This document shows positions 4,499 to 20,917 of a stretch of DNA of 20,958 bases, piece by piece. Both the position numbers and the translations under genes were made by a program. Where the stretch lies: the IMG/VR virus record IMGVR_UViG_3300005519_000020, positions 1 to 20,958 of that record; one strand, written 5' to 3'. Within the stretch, counting starts at the first letter, position 1. The number at the start of each line of letters is the position of its first letter. The notes beneath the pieces were generated by a model. It ran no database searches. It was not told the origin of the DNA and saw only the letters and a list, made by a program, of their open reading frames with translations. This DNA is from a virus.

Positions 4499-5731
4499 TT
4501 ACTGAAGCGCCTCCATCACGACTTCGCACCAGACTTGCGCCTGGATAGCATTGATCGCGTTTCCGTAGGCGCGCAGGCGTCCCACTCGGGCGGGAGCCCC
4601 ATGAGCCAGCGGGAATGTGCCGGGTTCAACTGGCCGCCACTTTCCATCCCGGCAGAGGAGCCAATCAGCATCTCGCCAGAAGCCGTTAGTCGGGCCGGGC
4701 CGCGCCAGTTCGAGTCGATCACATCCTGCATCGACCATTCGCATAAGCTGACCGTCTTGCGGCTGCTGTCGTTGTTCCCCGCAGGGTTGTTCCCGTTCTG
4801 CGCCGGAGTGCCCGCCATGGGCGTCGGCCATCCAGCCAACGGAGCGCACCCCGGCAGCCGATCCGTCCCCTGCGCTGGGCCGCCGTTTGGGCCGTCCTGC
4901 TGACATGGCGTCGGCCATCCAGCCAACGGAGCGCACCCCGGCAGCCGATCCGTCCCCTGCGCTGGGCCGCCGTTTGGGCCGTCCTGCTGACATGGCGTCG
5001 GCCACTCCGCCAACTGAGTGAATACCTCCTCGCTCAAAGGCTTGCCCTTGACCATTCGAGCCCTCGACGCCAGGAATTCCGGCGACGCGCTCGCGCTCTT
5101 CCAATCCCGTGCGGCCGGCGTCGGCCACGCGGCAAGCATCGAGAAGTCGTTGAGATTCGATCCGTGGCGGCTCTCGCCCATCGCGCGTTTCGCTTGCCCC
5201 ACCCCGCTGGCGTCCATAGCCTGCGGTGTGGGCCACCCAGTAAAGGCGGTCGCGGATGTGCGGGGCACCGATGCTCGCAGACGGGAACGGGACAGCCCCG
5301 AATCCGTATTCCACGGCTTCCATGTCAGCTTGTACAAGGTCGATCCAAGGATCTGCGTCCTTGCTCGCAACTTGTTCTCCAAGAACGACTGGAGGCCGGC
5401 GCTGCTGGATAAGCCAGTGAAAGGCAGGCCAGAGATGCCGCTCGTCAGCAAACGCAAGTCCTTTGCCTGCCGCGCTGAAAGGTTGGCAAGGACAGGAACC
5501 GGTCCAAACAGGTCGATCGTCGGACCAGCCTGCGCGTCGGAGTGCCAGCGACCAGACGCCGATTCCGGCGAAGAAGTGGCACTGTGTGTAGCCTCGGAGG
5601 TCGTCAGGTCGAACATCCTGAATGTCTCTCTCGTCGACGTCGCCCGGAGCAATGTGGCCCGCCGCAATCAGATTGCGCAGCCACTGGGCGGCGTATGGGT
5701 CGATCTCGTTGTAATAGGCGGCGGCAGACAT
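4499..5731 (-). CDS. C5-cytosine-specific DNA methyltransferase
   Basis: 410 aa from the ATG at 5731 (TGATG overlap with the HTH gene). Motif [18 protein letters not shown] lies at 53-69 and motif [14 protein letters not shown] at 78-89 with catalytic Cys82. Motif VI reads EQV (119-121) where most family members have ENV. Motif VIII is IRDRLYWVA (159-167) and motif X is [11 protein letters not shown] (388-398). The target-recognition region (about 168-350) contains a perfect 29-residue tandem duplication. It probably methylates phage DNA against host restriction; its target sequence cannot be read. A second long ORF overlaps it out of frame. Confidence 0.88.
4516..5616 (-). CDS. Possible overprinted ORF inside the methyltransferase gene (WPTP-repeat protein)
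   Basis: A 366-aa ORF in another frame on the same strand as the methyltransferase, open from ATG 5616 ([11 protein letters not shown]; an in-frame start at 5667 exists). It contains [20 protein letters not shown], five W-P-T-P motifs ([52 protein letters not shown]) and a C-terminal [21 protein letters not shown] recognise this motif set from phage proteins listed as hypothetical or methyltransferase-related. It may be a real overlapping gene, or those entries may be alternative-frame translations of methyltransferases. Both frames look conserved, so it is listed with moderate confidence. Confidence 0.4.
4821..4994. repeat. Perfect 87-bp tandem duplication within the methyltransferase gene
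   Basis: Positions 4821-4907 and 4908-4994 are identical over 87 bases, and a third copy starts at 4995 for about ten bases. The unit is 29 codons, so the methyltransferase frame is kept ([15 protein letters not shown]... twice), as is the overlapping frame ([14 protein letters not shown]... twice). The lack of any mismatch implies a recent duplication or an assembly artefact. Confidence 0.93.
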
Positions 5732-6027
5732 CACTGAAACAGGGAGCCCTGCTTCGCCGGCACCTTGACGCACTGCACGGTACGCAGCGTCACGGAACAC
5801 TTGCGCTCACCAGCCAGCACCAGGCGCCCCGCGGCGATGAGTTCGTTGCGCCGGCCCGAGACGCTGGATTTCTCCATATTCAAGAGAAACGCAATCTCGG
5901 CGATGGTGGCCGTTTCGACGGCTTCGACACATTCGACAATGCGGTCGCACTGCAGCTTGCCGACGTTGCGGCGGGTGCTGGAGTGGTAGGCGTCGATGGA
6001 AGTGTCTTGCACGTTGGTCAGCATCAT
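5731..6027 (-). CDS. Small winged-helix/HTH protein
   Basis: 98 aa from the ATG at 6027, which gives an ATGA overlap with the phosphatase stop and has GGGGGA upstream; ATG 6024 and 6039 are alternatives. The segment ECVEAVETATIAEIAFLLNMEKSSVSGRRNELIAAGRL is a winged-helix DNA-binding motif, with KSSVSGRRNELI as the likely recognition helix, followed by beta strands (SVTLRTVQCVKV). Phages of this type carry similar small wHTH proteins of unknown target. It may be a regulator or a replication accessory; the sequence does not decide. Confidence 0.68.
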   Translation of the reverse strand: MMLTNVQDTSIDAYHSSTRRNVGKLQCDRIVECVEAVETATIAEIAFLLNMEKSSVSGRRNELIAAGRLVLAGERKCSVTLRTVQCVKVPAKQGSLFQ

Positions 6028-7540: not shown

Positions 7541-7569
7541 ATTAAACACCACGTTTAATCAGAAGTCAA
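7541..7569 (-). promoter_or_regulatory. PR-like promoter of the leftward early operon
   Basis: On the minus strand, TTGACT (7569-7564), a 17-base spacer and TTTAAT (7546-7541) form a near-consensus sigma-70 promoter. The expected start, 7 bases past the -10 box, is at 7534, the A of the cro ATG. Operators centred at 7550 and 7574 overlap the -10 and -35 boxes, so repressor binding would occlude the polymerase. Confidence 0.85.
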
Positions 7570-7595
7570 ACGCCATGTTTATCAACAGGTTGTTT
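7544..7595. promoter_or_regulatory. OR operator cluster (three AAAC-N5-GTTT sites)
   Basis: Three imperfect palindromes share half-sites AAAC and GTTT five bases apart: 7544-7556 (within the 17-base palindrome TTAAACACCACGTTTAA at 7542-7558), 7568-7580, and a weaker one at 7583-7595 (CAAC in place of AAAC). The centres are 24 and 15 bases apart. They lie between the divergent cro and repressor genes and are matched by the cluster at 9041-9110. Confidence 0.85.
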
Positions 7596-7607
7596 ACGTG
7601 TGAGACC

Positions 7608-8414
7608 ATGCCGCGCATGCACGAAACCATGGTTCGCCTCTACGAGGCCGCACGCACACTCAAGGGATTGACGACCCAAGCGGACGTCGCCAGAGCCTTC
7701 AACTTCTCTCAGCAGAGGATCAAAAACTGGGAAGCCAGGGGCATGTCGAAGGGCGGCATGTTGAAGGCCCAAGAGGTTTTTGGTTGCAGCGCGACTTGGC
7801 TGGAGACCGGCAAGCCGCCGATGAACACTGTCAAGCAAAAATCTGATGCAGATCAGATTGAAATAAGACTTAACGAGCACTCAGAACCACCCTCTTACAA
7901 TCCTCAACAATCACCTACAAGAACGCTCACAGGCGTCGCGGTGCGCCCGATTGTTACTTATGAGACCCTGGACGAACTCCCTAAGGAGTCAACGGTTCTC
8001 ATCACGAGGATTGACGTGAAGCTGTCTGCGGGGAATGGGAGAGAGACTTGGCACATCGAGGAAAGGGAACCGCTGCCGTTCCAAGCCGATTACATACGGA
8101 GCCTCGATTCCAAACCGAAAAACTTAGTCGCCGCCAAGGTCAATGGCGACAGCATGGAGCCACGGCTATTCGACAAAGACACGGTGGTCGTCGACACGGC
8201 CGATACGCGGGTGCCAGCTAACGGCGGCGTGTTTGCCTTGGTGTATGCCGGCGAGCTGCTGGTCAAGCGCCTGTTCAGACTGCCTGATGGCGGACTGAAG
8301 GTGGTCAGCGACAACCATGTGCGCTACGAACCCGTCACAGTCGCGCCGGAGCATGTCGACAACGTGAGCATCATCGGCCGGGTCAAGTACCGGTCCGGCA
8401 TGGGCGATTTTTGA
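7608..8414 (+). CDS. S24/LexA-type CI-like prophage repressor
   Basis: 268 aa from ATG 7608. The in-frame ATG at 7575 would add 11 residues but lies inside an operator, so 7608 is preferred; the Shine-Dalgarno is weak for both. The N-terminal HTH is LTTQADVARAFNFSQQRIKNWEARG. The C-terminal S24 peptidase domain has Ala141-Gly142 in KLSAGNG as likely self-cleavage site, Ser182 in NGDSMEP and Lys220 in ELLVKRL as catalytic dyad. RecA-stimulated self-cleavage would make the prophage SOS-inducible. It should bind both operator clusters and keep the lysogenic state. Confidence 0.93.
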   Translation: MPRMHETMVRLYEAARTLKGLTTQADVARAFNFSQQRIKNWEARGMSKGGMLKAQEVFGCSATWLETGKPPMNTVKQKSDADQIEIRLNEHSEPPSYNPQQSPTRTLTGVAVRPIVTYETLDELPKESTVLITRIDVKLSAGNGRETWHIEEREPLPFQADYIRSLDSKPKNLVAAKVNGDSMEPRLFDKDTVVVDTADTRVPANGGVFALVYAGELLVKRLFRLPDGGLKVVSDNHVRYEPVTVAPEHVDNVSIIGRVKYRSGMGDF

Positions 8415-9040: not shown

Positions 9041-9110
9041 ACACACCGCGTTTGCACACCGCCAAAGAAAATTAAACGCGGTGTTTGACAACAAACTAAA
9101 CATGGTGTTT
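9041..9110. promoter_or_regulatory. OL operator cluster
   Basis: Two full sites, 9074-9086 and 9098-9110, have AAAC-N5-GTTT half-sites with centres 24 bases apart, the same spacing as the first two OR sites. A weaker site (ACAC-N5-GTTT) lies at 9041-9053. Shared half-sites at both ends of the repressor region argue that one repressor controls both early promoters. Confidence 0.82.
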
Positions 9111-9113
9111 AAT
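9085..9113 (+). promoter_or_regulatory. PL-like promoter of the rightward early operon
   Basis: A perfect -35 box TTGACA (9085-9090), a 17-base spacer and TTTAAT (9108-9113) predict a start near 9120. The -35 box abuts one operator and the second operator covers the spacer and -10 box. The -10 hexamer is identical to that of the PR-like promoter. Confidence 0.88.
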
Positions 9114-11575: not shown

Positions 11576-12538
11576 ATGCTCCCAGCAAAACGCGAAGTAT
11601 CGGCTTTGCCGGCATTGCAGATGGATGAAGGCGAGCTGATGGCAGTCCTTCGCAATTCCCTCTATCCAGGTGCACGCGATGAGTCGATCAAGCTCGTGCT
11701 CGGCTACTGTCGCGCGGCAGCTCTGGATCCGATGCAAAAGCCGGTGCACATCGTGCCGATGTCGGTTTCCACCGGCCAGAAGGACAAGGACGGCTGGGAC
11801 ATCAAGGAAATGCGCGATGTCGTCATGCCAGGCATCGGCCTCTACCGCACGCAAGCAGCTCGCTCTGGCGAGTATGCAGGTGTCACTGAACCCGATTTCG
11901 GCGATGACGTCACCGAGAAGCTGGGCGACGCGACTGTTACGTACCCGAAGTGGTGCCGCGTCACGGTAAAGCGGCTGCTGAACGGCACCGTTGTGGAGTT
12001 CACTGCCAAAGAATATTGGCGCGAAAACTACGCGACGAAGAGCGCCCGCTCTGTCGAGCCCAACGCTATGTGGAAACGACGCCCCTATGGGCAACTCGCA
12101 AAGTGCGCAGAAGCGCAAGCGTTGCGCAAAGCCTTTCCCGAGTTTGGTGCCCAGCCGACTGCCGACGAAATGGAAGGTGCGATCGAGTTGGAGCAGTCCA
12201 ACGACGATCTTTCGCCTCCTACTGCCGGCGTGCCGATGCCGAAGTCACGCACCATAGCCCAGCAAGGCGGTGATGGCCAAGTCATCGACGTGCAGCCCAA
12301 GTCTGAAACGGACGCTGGCAGCGCCAAAAGCACCAGCACCGCCAAGAGGAAGGCCGACACGAGCGCCAATGACCTCGCATCCGAAGGCGAGCGCGCATGG
12401 ATCCGCCGCAAGTTGGAAGACCTGGGCGTTGAACTGCAAGCGGCCTGCGAGGAAGCCGGCATCAGCAACTTCGATGCGCTGACTTCTGACGGTTTCATTG
12501 CCCTGAAGGACCTCATCAATCGCTTGGAGCGCCAGTAA
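11576..12538 (+). CDS. bet: Bet/RecT-family single-strand annealing protein
   Basis: 320 aa. The annealase core is YCRAAALDPMQKPVHIVPM (44-62), VVMPGIGLYRTQAARSGEYAG (82-102), a KRLLNGTVVEFTAKEYW segment, and AMWKRRPYGQLAKCAEAQALRKAFPEF (164-190), the hallmark C-terminal motif of lambda Bet and RecT. These proteins anneal complementary single strands made by a 5'-3' exonuclease, here the adjacent gene. After about residue 215 follows a low-complexity Ser/Thr linker and a small helical tail. AGGAG lies 7 bases before the ATG. Confidence 0.92.
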   Translation: MLPAKREVSALPALQMDEGELMAVLRNSLYPGARDESIKLVLGYCRAAALDPMQKPVHIVPMSVSTGQKDKDGWDIKEMRDVVMPGIGLYRTQAARSGEYAGVTEPDFGDDVTEKLGDATVTYPKWCRVTVKRLLNGTVVEFTAKEYWRENYATKSARSVEPNAMWKRRPYGQLAKCAEAQALRKAFPEFGAQPTADEMEGAIELEQSNDDLSPPTAGVPMPKSRTIAQQGGDGQVIDVQPKSETDAGSAKSTSTAKRKADTSANDLASEGERAWIRRKLEDLGVELQAACEEAGISNFDALTSDGFIALKDLINRLERQ

Positions 12539-14781: not shown

Positions 14782-15138
14782 ATGCAAATCCAACTTCCCC
14801 CGCTCGCTGAAGGCGAAACCTATCTCTTCGGTCGCGTCGACAAGAACGGTGACATCGAACACACCGTGGTCATCGCTGTGAACAACAGCGCGCTGTCCCG
14901 CGAGAAGCAACGCGAGTGGGCTAAGAGCATTGGCGGCGTGCTGATGAACCGCATCGAAGCCATCGAGATCTACAACAGCCACCGCGACCTCGTTGAGCCC
15001 GATTGGTACTGGACTGACGAAGACGTCGAATGGGATACCGCTTACGCCTGGTACCAGAACTTCAGCTACGGCTACCAGCTCAGCGACCCCAAGTGCGCCG
15101 CGCTGCGCGCGGTCGCTGTCCGCAGATTCAAAAATTGA
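14782..15138 (+). CDS. DGR target protein 1, DUF1566/C-type-lectin-like variable protein
   Basis: 118 aa, no signal peptide. The N-terminal MQIQLPPLAEGETYLFGRVDKNGDIEHTVVI and WAKSIGGVLMNRIEAIEIYN lead into DWYWTDEDVEWDTAYAWYQNF and the C-terminal ALRAVAVRRF, the DUF1566-type C-type-lectin-like fold found in many DGR targets. Residues 87-116 are encoded by VR1. Variable residues relative to the template reading NFNNGNQNNNHKS are S, Y, Y, L, S, D, P and C (eight changes). Such domains present a ligand-binding face. The ligand is unknown. AGGA lies 8 bases before the ATG. Confidence 0.88.
   Translation: MQIQLPPLAEGETYLFGRVDKNGDIEHTVVIAVNNSALSREKQREWAKSIGGVLMNRIEAIEIYNSHRDLVEPDWYWTDEDVEWDTAYAWYQNFSYGYQLSDPKCAALRAVAVRRFKN
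15038..15128 (+). repeat. Variable repeat VR1
   Basis: 91 bases aligned without gaps to TR 16201-16291. The first 20 bases and the last 43 or so are identical; 9 substitutions lie in between, and every one is at a template A (three to G, four to T and two to C, counted codon by codon). It lies at the 3' end of target gene 1 and is followed by CA where TR has GG. Confidence 0.97.
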
Positions 15139-15198
15139 CCCATCTCCTCATTCACTGAGCTGAACAACCCATCCCGTCCAACTCTGCAGGAGCACAGC

Positions 15199-15666
15199 AT
15201 GACCGCAGTCACCCTGGAGCACATCGAAGCGGAGCACGTGCGCATCGGCGAACTTATCAAGCGATTCAAGGAACAGCCGCGCGCCACGGAATACCGTGTC
15301 GATGCAGTCACGATCCCACTCGCGCCCGGCGAACGCCTCGCCGGTCCGATCTACGCCGAAGACGGCACGCTGGATTACTACCTGATCAAGCTGCCCGGCG
15401 ATGGTGGCGACCTCAGCCACTCCGATGCCATCGCGTATGCGGCCGGCCGTGGCGGCAAGGTTCCCAATCGCCGCGAAGGGCGCCTTCTGATGGCGAATCT
15501 AGGCGAGGAGTTCGACAAGGTCGCCTACTGGTTGGAAGACGACTACGAGCCGAACTCCGCTTACGCCTGGTACCAGTACTTCGACGGCGGCTACCAGATC
15601 ACCAACCACGAGAGCGCCGCGCTGCGCGCGGTCGCTGTCCGCAGATTCACCCCTTCCGTAATTTGA
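15199..15666 (+). CDS. DGR target protein 2, DUF1566/C-type-lectin-like variable protein
   Basis: 155 aa. A helical N-terminus (MTAVTLEHIEAEHVRIGELIKRFKEQ) not shared with target 1 precedes a DUF1566-like domain: GRGGKVPNRREGRLLMANL, AYWLEDDYEPNSAYAWYQYF and ALRAVAVRRF. VR2 covers residues 120-149. Seven residues differ from the template reading (Y, D, G, Y, I, T, E). The two targets share little outside the VR-coded end and the surrounding fold, so they are diverged paralogues or separate acquisitions fed by one TR. GGAG precedes the ATG by 6 bases. Confidence 0.9.
   Translation: MTAVTLEHIEAEHVRIGELIKRFKEQPRATEYRVDAVTIPLAPGERLAGPIYAEDGTLDYYLIKLPGDGGDLSHSDAIAYAAGRGGKVPNRREGRLLMANLGEEFDKVAYWLEDDYEPNSAYAWYQYFDGGYQITNHESAALRAVAVRRFTPSVI
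15557..15647 (+). repeat. Variable repeat VR2
   Basis: 91 bases aligned without gaps to TR 16201-16291, with 8 substitutions, all at template A. The same reading phase is used as in VR1. Its 3' flank CA equals that of VR1 and differs from TR (GG), consistent with the VR-side form of the homing-initiation region. Confidence 0.97.
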
Positions 15667-15680
15667 TCATTTGACACGCC

Positions 15681-16058
15681 ATGGCTCTGCACACTGAGCT
15701 CGACGTCTACAAGACCGGCTACGACCTGTTCGGCAAGGTGACCATGATCGTCGCGAACATGGAACGCACTTTCAAGCGCCTGATCGGCGAGGAGATCGTC
15801 CGCGAATCCTCGAAGCTTCTGATCTTGGTCTATCGCGCGAATGTCGCTGAAGACAAGGTGCCGCACCTCGCCAACTTGGTCGAGCGAGTAAAGCTCGTCG
15901 AGCTGTTGATCCGCCTCTCATTCGACATGAAGAAGGTCTCGCCTAAGCAGTACTGGGCGGTCACGAAGTTGACGGAGAGCATCAGCAAACAGGCCACGGC
16001 GTGGAAGAAGTACGCAGCCAAGCGCCCGTTTCATGGAGGTCAAGGCCACCATGACTGA
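15681..16058 (+). CDS. avd: Avd-like accessory variability determinant
   Basis: 125 aa, the normal size for Avd. It is all-helical and basic: LDVYKTGYDLFGKVTMIVANM, then FKRLIGEEIVRESSKLLILVYRAN, LANLVERVKLVELLIRLSFDM and YWAVTKLTESISKQATAWKKYAA, the four helices of the bundle fold. Avd forms a pentamer that binds the reverse transcriptase and the template RNA and is essential for mutagenic cDNA synthesis in the Bordetella phage system. It begins 14 bases after target 2 with little Shine-Dalgarno. Its end overlaps the reverse transcriptase start. Confidence 0.9.
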   Translation: MALHTELDVYKTGYDLFGKVTMIVANMERTFKRLIGEEIVRESSKLLILVYRANVAEDKVPHLANLVERVKLVELLIRLSFDMKKVSPKQYWAVTKLTESISKQATAWKKYAAKRPFHGGQGHHD

Positions 16059-17421
16059 GCGCCTTTTCAATCTGGTCGTGCCGCTGGCTCACAAGGCCAC
16101 CGCCATGCGCGTCACGGATACCGCCGGTTTCGACCGGGAAGCGTCCCGCGCAGTTTCCCATCTGAGCGATCGGACGGGCGACGTAGATAGCACGATTGGT
16201 CCGCTTACGCCTGGTACCAGAACTTCAACAACGGCAACCAGAACAACAACCACAAGAGCGCCGCGCTGCGCGCGGTCGCTGTCCGCAGATTGGAACGAAA
16301 CGGAAGGCTTCACGGGCGCCGAGTTGGTCAGAGCATACCGAGACTGCCGGCGCACGAAACGCAATACAGCAAGCGCGCTCGCCTTCGAAGCCAACCTCGA
16401 GCGCAACCTCTTCAAATTGCACGGCGAACTGGCCAGCGGCTGCTATGTGCCGGGCCCATCGAAGTGCTTTGTCATCGACCGGCCCAAGCATCGCGAAGTC
16501 TGGGCGGCCGCCTTCCGCGATCGAATCGTGCACCACTTGTTGTACAACCGCATTGGTCCGCGCTTCGAACGCACATTCATCGCCGATTCCTGCGCATGCA
16601 TCAAAGGGCGCGGCACGCTATACGCCGCCCAGCGCCTGGAATCGAAAGTGCGCTCGATTACCCAGAACTGGGCACGGCCAGCGCACTACCTGAAGTGCGA
16701 TCTGGCCAACTTCTTCGTCAGCATCGACAAGCGCGTACTCCTCGATCTACTGCTCGCGAAGATCTCCGAGCCATTCTGGCGCGCATTGACCGAGCTCGTG
16801 CTGATGCACGATCCACGGGAAAACTTCGTCTACCTTGGCGACCCTAGGATGATGGACCGCGTGCCGCCGCACAAGCGCTTGATGCAACAGCCGGCGCACC
16901 TCGGGCTGCCTATCGGCAACCTGTCGTCGCAGTTCTTCGCCAACGTCTACCTCAACGAGCTGGACCAGTTCGTGAAGCACGAACTGCGCTGCCGGCATTA
17001 CATCCGCTACGTCGACGACTTCGTGCTTATGCACGAGTCGCCTCAGTGGCTCAACGAGGCGCACGCTGCCGTCGCGGCATTCCTGCCGGCCCGGCTTGGT
17101 GCGCGCCTCAACCCAACGAAGACCATCCTGCAGCCGGTCGCACGCGGCATCGACTTCGTCGGCCAGGTGGTTCGCCCATGGGTGCGGCACACCCGCAAGC
17201 GGACGCTGAATAGCAGCATTCAGCGCGTTCGCGAAATGCCGGCACAGGACATCTATCAAGCCGCCAACAGCTACTTCGGCCTGCTGCGCCAAGCCACTGG
17301 CAGCCACACCGAGCGCGCCAAGCTCGCGAATGCCGCGCGCAAGCGTGGGCATGCCGTCAATCGACAACTCACGAAGGCCTACCGCGCCGCCCTCGATAAG
17401 CAGAAGGAGAAGCAACAATGA
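16051..17421 (+). CDS. DGR reverse transcriptase
   Basis: 456 aa from ATG 16051, which has GGAGGT 10 bases upstream; ATG 16033 is an alternative. The polymerase core includes YLKCDLANFFVSID with Asp217, GLPIGNLSSQFFANVYLNELD (285-305; the SQ in motif 4 is typical of DGR enzymes, where group II introns have QG), and RYVDDFVLM with Asp322-Asp323. The thumb is basic. There is no maturase or endonuclease domain. The first 80 or so residues, including a Thr/Arg-rich stretch translated from TR, precede the conserved core and are not typical. No in-frame ATG or GTG was found between TR and the core; TTG 16324 is the only candidate. Confidence 0.95.
   Translation: MTERLFNLVVPLAHKATAMRVTDTAGFDREASRAVSHLSDRTGDVDSTIGPLTPGTRTSTTATRTTTTRAPRCARSLSADWNETEGFTGAELVRAYRDCRRTKRNTASALAFEANLERNLFKLHGELASGCYVPGPSKCFVIDRPKHREVWAAAFRDRIVHHLLYNRIGPRFERTFIADSCACIKGRGTLYAAQRLESKVRSITQNWARPAHYLKCDLANFFVSIDKRVLLDLLLAKISEPFWRALTELVLMHDPRENFVYLGDPRMMDRVPPHKRLMQQPAHLGLPIGNLSSQFFANVYLNELDQFVKHELRCRHYIRYVDDFVLMHESPQWLNEAHAAVAAFLPARLGARLNPTKTILQPVARGIDFVGQVVRPWVRHTRKRTLNSSIQRVREMPAQDIYQAANSYFGLLRQATGSHTERAKLANAARKRGHAVNRQLTKAYRAALDKQKEKQQ
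16201..16291 (+). repeat. Template repeat TR
   Basis: 91 bases with AAC codons in the frame of the targets (reading NFNNGNQNNNHKS), the design that gives maximum diversity when A is randomised. It is identical to both variable repeats at every non-A position. It contains the GC-rich palindrome CCGCGC-TGC-GCGCGG at 16261-16275, present in both VRs too. It is flanked by GG at its 3' side. It lies inside the reverse transcriptase ORF. Confidence 0.97.
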
Positions 17422-19479: not shown

Positions 19480-19689
19480 ATGCCGATACTGACGAATGAA
19501 GACTTGAAAGCCCTCACTGGCGGCCTTGTACAAGGGGCGGCCCAGTGTCGGTGGATCACCCGCGAGCTAGGCTTCAAGCCGCCCATGAAGATCGACGGCC
19601 ACCCGTCTATCACTTGGGAGCAGGTGAATCGCGGTCGCACATCTGGCGAGAAGCCGCGCACCGAGCCCCGGTGGAGTGTCGCAGCGTGA
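19480..19689 (+). CDS. DUF4224-like protein, excisionase position
   Basis: 69 aa. ILTNEDLKALTGGLVQGAAQCRWITRELGFKPPMKIDGHPSITWEQV fits the DUF4224 pattern (LT..EL..LTG......Q...L...G......DG.P...). The family is typically encoded directly before tyrosine integrases and is suspected to act as a recombination directionality factor. GGGAG lies 6 bases before ATG 19480. Its stop overlaps the integrase GTG. Confidence 0.78.
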   Translation: MPILTNEDLKALTGGLVQGAAQCRWITRELGFKPPMKIDGHPSITWEQVNRGRTSGEKPRTEPRWSVAA

Positions 19690-20732
19690 ACCGGCCACGT
19701 ACCGTCAAGCAGGCAAAAGGCCTGCTGGATCGCATGGAAGCGCGCCCGCGAAAAGACGGGCTCGTGACATATCGCTACCGGCCCGTCAATGGCAAGCCGA
19801 TCAACCTGGGAACTGACCGCCTGAAAGCAATTCAGCAGGTACTGGATATGCTTGGCCACGGCGACAACATCGGCACCATTGAGCGCTTGTGGGAGCAGTA
19901 CCAAGAGACGCCTGAGTGGAAGGCGCTCGCCAAAGGCACGCGCGACGACTACACGACATGCAGCAAGCCTTTGCTGGCAACGTTCGGGGAAGTCCGGGCC
20001 AGCGACATCAAGGCGCCCCACATTGCGCGATACCTGCGTGTGGAGCGAAAGAATGCCCCCATCCGGGCCAACCGGGAGGCCGCCCTACTCTCGAACCTCA
20101 TCAATCTGGCGATCGAGCGCGGGGAGGCAGAGGTCAACCCATGCCGCCAAGTACGACGCAATCCTGAGCAGCCCCGTACGCATGCCGTCGCTACGGAGAC
20201 GATAGCGGCGTTCGTTGGCTGGCTGATGGGGCAGACACCACAGCGCAAGATCATCGCGCTGGCGGCGGAATACGCTGCACTGGCGGGCAGCCGGAAGGCC
20301 GAGTTCTTGGACATCGTGCGCCCGCAGGTCGATACCACTGCCGGCGTCATTCGAACGAAACGCGCCAAGCAGCGCGGTGGCAAGCGCGACCAGGTCATCG
20401 AGGAAGTTGCTATCACCCCTCGCTTGGCCGATCTGTTGGCTCGCATTGATGCCGTGCACAAAGAGCAGGAGCGGGATTGCTTGTACCTGTTCCCGAACCG
20501 GCACGGCAACCACTACACCGCATCTGGCTTCAAAGCGATGTGGGGCAAACTGATGAATAAGGCGCTGGAGGGAAAGGTGATCGCCGAACGGTTCACCTTC
20601 CACGATCTGCGTGCCTACTACGCGACAACGCACAAGGCGGAGCGAGGAAACCTGCCAGACCTGCACGCCAATCCGGCCATCACGGCGCGTGTCTACGACC
20701 GCAGCAAGGTGGTCAAGCGCAAGGCGCTCTGA
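19686..20732 (+). CDS. int: Tyrosine-family phage integrase
   Basis: 348 aa from GTG 19686 (GTGA overlap with the DUF4224 stop); longer frames run into the preceding gene. The N-terminal arm-binding strand set is DGLVTYRYRPVNGKPINLG, the core-binding helices include TRDDYTTCSKPLLATFGEVRASDIKAPHIARYL, and the catalytic residues are Arg203 (AGSRKAEF), Lys225 (RTKRAK), His306 and Arg309 (FHDLRA), His327 and Tyr337 (VYDRS). It catalyses integration and excision, here at the adjacent tRNA-His. The Cterminal KVVKRKAL ends soon after the tyrosine, normal for the group. Confidence 0.95.
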   Translation: MNRPRTVKQAKGLLDRMEARPRKDGLVTYRYRPVNGKPINLGTDRLKAIQQVLDMLGHGDNIGTIERLWEQYQETPEWKALAKGTRDDYTTCSKPLLATFGEVRASDIKAPHIARYLRVERKNAPIRANREAALLSNLINLAIERGEAEVNPCRQVRRNPEQPRTHAVATETIAAFVGWLMGQTPQRKIIALAAEYAALAGSRKAEFLDIVRPQVDTTAGVIRTKRAKQRGGKRDQVIEEVAITPRLADLLARIDAVHKEQERDCLYLFPNRHGNHYTASGFKAMWGKLMNKALEGKVIAERFTFHDLRAYYATTHKAERGNLPDLHANPAITARVYDRSKVVKRKAL

Positions 20733-20840: not shown

Positions 20841-20917
20841 TGGGGTGACCGATGGGATTCGAACCCACGACAACCAGAATCACAATCTGGGACTCTACCA
20901 ACTGAGCTACGGCCACC
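20841..20917 (-). tRNA. tRNA-His (anticodon GTG), prophage integration site
   Basis: On the minus strand the sequence begins GGTGGCC, has TAGCTCAGTTGGTAGAG for the D arm, CCAGA-TTGTGAT-TCTGG for the anticodon arm with anticodon GTG, GTGGGTTCGAACCCCAT for the T arm, and ends GGTCACCCCA. The extra 5' G opposite C73 and the encoded CCA are typical of tRNA-His. All stems pair. Its 3' end faces the integrase gene, the usual arrangement when a phage uses the 3' end of a tRNA as attB and restores it on integration. Confidence 0.96.

Follow-up and report, generated by a model that had tools for sequence, protein, structure and literature searches.

The window that we analyzed is a 20,958-base viral fragment, which makes up its entire IMG/VR record. 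It contains a cassette with the order VP1, VP2, Avd, RT-15 RNA, template repeat (TR), and reverse transcriptase (RT). These genes and elements were identified from open reading frames and from domain, PHROG, and Rfam matches, and all of them are on the plus strand. VP1 (positions 14782–15138; 118 amino acids) encodes a C-type-lectin-like target protein with a weak match to Lcl_C, and it contains VR1 (15038–15128), which aligns to TR. VP2 (15199–15666; 155 amino acids) contains a second such target site, VR2 (15557–15647). Our count of two VRs covers this fragment alone, and further VRs may be missing. Next is the accessory protein Avd (15681–16058; 125 amino acids), which matches phrog_3206 (“Avd protein of DGR”, E = 9.4e-21); in the domain search, it also matches bAvd with E = 2.8e-8, which is under the gathering cutoff. 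A structured RNA, RT-15 (RF03018; 16020–16202), is matched across its full length with a covariance-model score of 168.6 bits (E = 4.6e-42; the gathering score is 82 bits), and it abuts TR (16201–16291), which has 24 adenines. The RT (16300–17421) matches RVT_1 (E = 4.8e-14) and phrog_1423 (E = 1.5e-113). Its start is provisional: the open frame reaches 16033 or beyond. The sequence features of a diversity-generating retroelement (DGR) are found here, namely TR-VR differences at A only, an adjacent RT, Avd, and a C-type-lectin-like target with a C-terminal VR.

The cassette lies between phage recombination genes (RecT and exonuclease-like genes) and an integrase. RecT (11576–12538, plus strand) marks the phage recombination module that adjoins the DGR, and the tyrosine integrase (19545–20732, plus strand) is beside a tRNA-His (20841–20916). 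We found no plasmid match. The same kind of region houses the cassette in Magia, Haboob, Cruim01, and Shewanella phage QDWS, which are annotated relatives. No annotated tail gene is near the DGR in Haboob, Cruim01, or Magia; a minor tail gene of Shewanella phage QDWS is about 6 kb from the DGR, past the integrase. Burkholderia phage Magia (MT701587) has the same gene order, with RT, VP2, and VP1 proteins that are 75%, 59%, and 53% identical, and its DGR is also near RecT and an integrase.

The DGR of Bordetella phage BPP-1 (mtd-avd-TR-brt) is similar in its order of target, Avd, TR, and RT, in its adenine-only differences, in its C-type-lectin-like target, and in the GC-rich 3' end of its VR. 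BPP-1 also integrates at tRNA-His. Unlike the window, which has two small targets in a recombination/integrase region, BPP-1 has one target, and it is in the tail gene cluster.

The PHROG match of the window's target protein is a family of unknown function. The AlphaFold2 model of VP2 (mean pLDDT 93.7) has an N-terminal helix and a C-type-lectin-like domain. Its best match in the PDB is the C-terminal domain of Legionella Lcl (8q4e; E = 1.1e-3 from Foldseek and E = 6.6e-7 from a profile search), followed by C-type lectins. The corresponding Pfam, Lcl_C (PF07603), matches 43 of 50 relatives in the target family. No other match of the VP2 family is better in structure or sequence than this domain, which is 20% identical to VP2. 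We know of no report of Lcl itself as a target of this type of DGR.

Two other features of the window are far from the cassette. There is an exact 87-base tandem duplication at 4820–4993, within a minus-strand frame (4499–5800) whose translation resembles a DNA methyltransferase. Also, 41-base inverted repeats with TTTAA-like cores (7541–7581 and 9073–9113), which are possibly operators, flank a repressor-like gene (7575–8414).

Adenine-only differences and the adenines that vary

TR and VR2 align without gaps across 91 bases, with eight mismatches. As the initial annotation had stated, all eight are at template adenines (A to T, G, G, G, T, T, C, and G). With 24 adenines among 91 bases and mismatches placed on random sites, this pattern would be improbable (hypergeometric P = 8.7e-6). 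VR1 has nine mismatches to TR, and these are also all at adenines (9/9, P = 1.7e-6). The same repeats were recovered by a blind repeat search that did not involve the DGR hypothesis (as its family D1). TR lacks A at positions 58–86, and both VRs match it there exactly. In VR2, these positions are the first 29 bases of an IMH-like, GC-rich 3' end (15614–15647) that is identical to TR throughout.

Related RTs are encoded in 72 loci from viruses and 23 from genomes. When these were scanned for direct repeats with an A bias, most of them yielded TR-VR pairs, and RTs that are 60–87% identical adjoin such pairs in about 65 of them. We kept 129 distinct pairs from 65 loci that had at least 85% of mismatches at A and at least 85 bases; three long pairs, from loci L022 and L078, were dropped by the A rule. 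Within the retained pairs, 1627 of 1648 mismatches are at a template A, which is partly by construction because the pairs were selected for at least 85% A mismatches. Many of these loci are related, and the counts across loci are not independent events. The 129 pairs allow variable and invariable adenines to be told apart.

The adenines in TTAC, GTACC, and CAG are unchanged in both VRs of the window, and the initial annotation took this as a hint of selection on structural residues. That idea survives for CAG only. Six VRs, from the window and from loci L004 and L010, have the same TR core, and among these the GTACC adenine is changed in 4/6, the TTAC adenine in 1/6, and both CAG adenines in 0/6. 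In the matching columns across the relatives, the GTACC adenine is changed in 67% of cases and the TTAC adenine in 43%. We therefore rejected a structural role for the adenines of TTAC and GTACC. Across codons in the relatives, the first A of AAC is changed 73% of the time, the second A of AAC 48%, the A of TAC 44%, and the A of CAG just 1% (3/243).

For the fixed CAG adenines, the A-before-G context is a confound for the structural reading. The first A of AGC is also changed in only 4 of 29 cases in the relatives, and the BPP-1 RT shows context effects as well (PMC12875486). Sequence context alone may thus account for fixed adenines before G, but both the CAA and the CAC contexts show an effect of position. 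Adenines in the CAA context are changed in 13/102 cases inside constrained codons and in 486/722 cases outside them (P = 1.6e-26). For CAC, the corresponding counts are 1/20 and 19/39 (P = 0.001). These P values are optimistic because the choice of constrained codons was itself based on these data. Since the same contexts change far less inside constrained codons, codon position counts.

In the VP2 protein, the changes in VR2 amount to N127Y, N129D, N130G, N132Y, N134I, N135T, and K138E. The last of these is in a codon whose first A seldom changes (5/95 in the relatives). The fixed residues W124, Q126, F128, G131, and Q133 alternate with the variable ones or border them. The products of the two targets, VP1 and VP2, are small and lectin-like, and their variable residues are interspersed with a fixed W, Q, F, G, and Q.

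The RT-15 RNA beside the template

RT-15 ends 1–5 bases into TR in all 11 of the related DGR loci that were tested. Rfam lists RT-15 as an sRNA gene. Because it consistently abuts the template repeat, we infer from these sequences that the family is the 5' part of a putative DGR template RNA, which suggests what the RT-15 family belongs to. In three of these loci (L024, L049, and L088), TR and RT-15 are 0.6–1.2 kb away from the RT, with other sequence between them, so the RNA and the template seem to move as a unit.

In the window, the RT frame (16033–17421) is open through RT-15 and TR, and there is no clear start after TR. We considered whether the RT is translated through RT-15 and TR, and rejected this: many relatives share the open frame of the window, but others have a closed one. 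Also, a codon test gave 0.21/0.21/0.19 for the RT-15 stretch, with no third-position excess, versus 0.21/0.16/0.46 for the RT. Given the closed frames in some relatives and the lack of a third-position excess, there is no sign of coding in the RT-15 stretch.

Octamer rows after the VRs

Each VR in the window is followed by a row of similar octamers on the plus strand. The row after VR1 (15126–15157) is ATTCAAAA ATTGACCC ATCTCCTC ATTCACTG, which is degenerate and extends past the VP1 stop codon. The row after VR2 (15645–15676), a candidate target-site element, is ATTCACCC CTTCCGTA ATTTGATC ATTTGACA and spans the VP2 stop codon. Across the family, the rows are directly 3' of the VR ends and span the stop codon, with the consensus [AC]TT[CTG][AG]N[TC][CA] (or [AC]TTYRNYM). 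For 47 flanks clustered below 70% identity, the identity at a lag of 8 bases is 0.45, as compared to 0.27 in dinucleotide shuffles (z = 15.8), and the periodicity continues past the stop codon (0.37 versus 0.27). With TR flanks and shuffles as the controls, a chain of three octamers is found in 95/110 VR flanks, 0/52 TR flanks, and about 7/110 shuffles; these figures describe the pattern rather than test it blindly, because it was written after viewing the flanks. The row after VR1 in the window fails the strict chain pattern, while its counterpart in L004 passes.

Magia has octamer rows as well, and so does the alphaproteobacterial DGR in locus L094, which is 39% identical. The Bacteroidales and Bacilli DGRs that we looked at showed no octamer row, and neither did BPP-1. 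A target site like that of BPP-1 would have a GC-rich hairpin with a 4-nt loop, 4–34 bp after the VR; BPP-1 itself needs an 8-bp hairpin, GCGGGGCC-GAAA-GGCCCCGC (PMC3240598). The window has octamer rows instead: a scan of about 90 bases after VR1 and VR2 for hairpins of this type (a stem of at least 6 bp, at least 70% GC, and a loop of 3–6) found none, and the same scan did detect the BPP-1 hairpin. Among the relatives, GC-rich hairpins follow 36 of 129 VRs, versus 7.5% of random stretches.

By analogy with BPP-1, we tentatively propose that a row of three to four octamers after the VR could mark the target sites in this DGR lineage, instead of or besides a BPP-1 hairpin. If so, then the fact that TR has no octamers behind it would be part of the reason why the template escapes rewriting, and the octamer row would be a sequence rule for recognizing DGR targets outside the BPP-1 hairpin type.

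It is also quite possible that the rows are a feature of the transcripts of the VP genes or of their translation (for instance, an element at the 3' end of the mRNA, or a spacer ahead of the following gene), which would be compatible with the DGR reading. The rows straddle stop codons and often precede the start of the next gene. Furthermore, two scans of sequence collections found similar 8-base rows in phage contigs without a detected DGR, so we rejected the idea that the row is a DGR-only sequence. On the other hand, the family loci, which total 640 kb, have 103 strict chains, of which 96 are at VR ends; the remaining seven are near truncated target genes or at the ends of additional ones. 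The rows follow the VR ends of different VP types, and none follows TR. These observations speak against a transcript or translation feature. As a DGR-free control, we also tried EBPR siphovirus 1, which has a VP-like gene; this was uninformative, as the phage may have a DGR elsewhere.

Two targets and one template

VR2 is almost certainly the second target site of a DGR in a temperate phage. This is supported by the adenine-only differences, the identity to TR elsewhere, two anciently diverged targets, the presence of Avd, the RT, and the RNA element, and by the same DGR pattern in about 65 related loci. By analogy with BPP-1, the RT, together with Avd, would copy an RNA that spans RT-15 and TR and would misincorporate opposite template adenines. 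In mutagenic retrohoming, each separate event would then overwrite either VR1 or VR2 with the mutated cDNA. Marking of the target may be aided by the octamer row after each VR, where BPP-1 uses its hairpin, but the rest of this explanation does not depend on the octamers.

The lack of a clear start codon for the RT might indicate that the element is a relic, with a dead RT or Avd and with VRs that record old events. We consider this unlikely: the reading frames of RT, Avd, VP1, and VP2 are all intact, and the VRs match TR perfectly outside the adenines, even though TRs differ by 20% between loci. Across the relatives, VRs differ from their own TR at just 17 of 6557 non-A positions, but from the TRs of other loci at 20%, which points to template-driven homogenization. 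Since the VRs in the window equal TR outside the adenines despite this divergence of the templates, the last homing events were probably recent relative to that drift.

The initial annotation also proposed that the two targets were diversified separately from one template, and our comparison of VR1 and VR2, site by site, supports this. Its description of the sites in VR2 as “mostly different” from those in VR1 is loose: half of them (4/8) are also changed in VR1, although six of the eight substitutions do differ. The sites that are changed in both VRs are four of the 24 adenines (TR positions 30, 36, 43, and 46), where three would be expected by chance (P = 0.32 for four or more). At two of these four sites (36 and 43), both VRs have the same base, which is unremarkable (P = 0.51). 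VP1 and VP2 are 35% identical and so are old paralogs. In contrast, VP2 shares 85% identity with the VP2 of L004 and 43–57% with those of other phages, which implies that the gene pair is old and that each copy was rewritten on its own. It is extremely improbable that either VR is a plain duplicate of the other that drifted, without separate rewriting from TR: the proteins are paralogs and the VRs have two identical substitutions in common, but every difference of either VR from TR is at a TR adenine, the common sites and bases are at chance levels, and VP2 is far closer to the VP2 of other phages than to VP1.

A DGR with two targets is ordinary, as DGRs with several targets were already known from Burkholderia and Ralstonia in 2012. 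In the part of the DiGReF paper (2012) that we draw on, multi-VR DGRs have two to four paralogous targets that are independently diversified, and those listed include Burkholderia thailandensis, B. glumae, Ralstonia pickettii, and Pseudomonas fluorescens (PMC3521204). That part of the paper describes neither an octamer row nor an RNA element for them (PMC3521204). VR2 makes the cassette a further clean case of a DGR with two targets. Its added interest is the octamer row and the link to RT-15, and we found no earlier mention of either in the open-licence papers that we searched.

In the genome announcement for Magia, genes 47 and 57 are named as DGR targets (PMC7883833). The counterpart of VP2 in Magia is gene 46 (4894–5358 in locus L099), which is annotated as hypothetical, and all 11 of its mismatches to TR are at A. 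This pattern shows that gene 46 is a DGR target too, besides the two that were named by the authors. Locus L031 has five VRs for one template. Finally, in locus L061, two type II hammerhead ribozymes (1492–1572 and 2305–2370) are upstream of the target genes.
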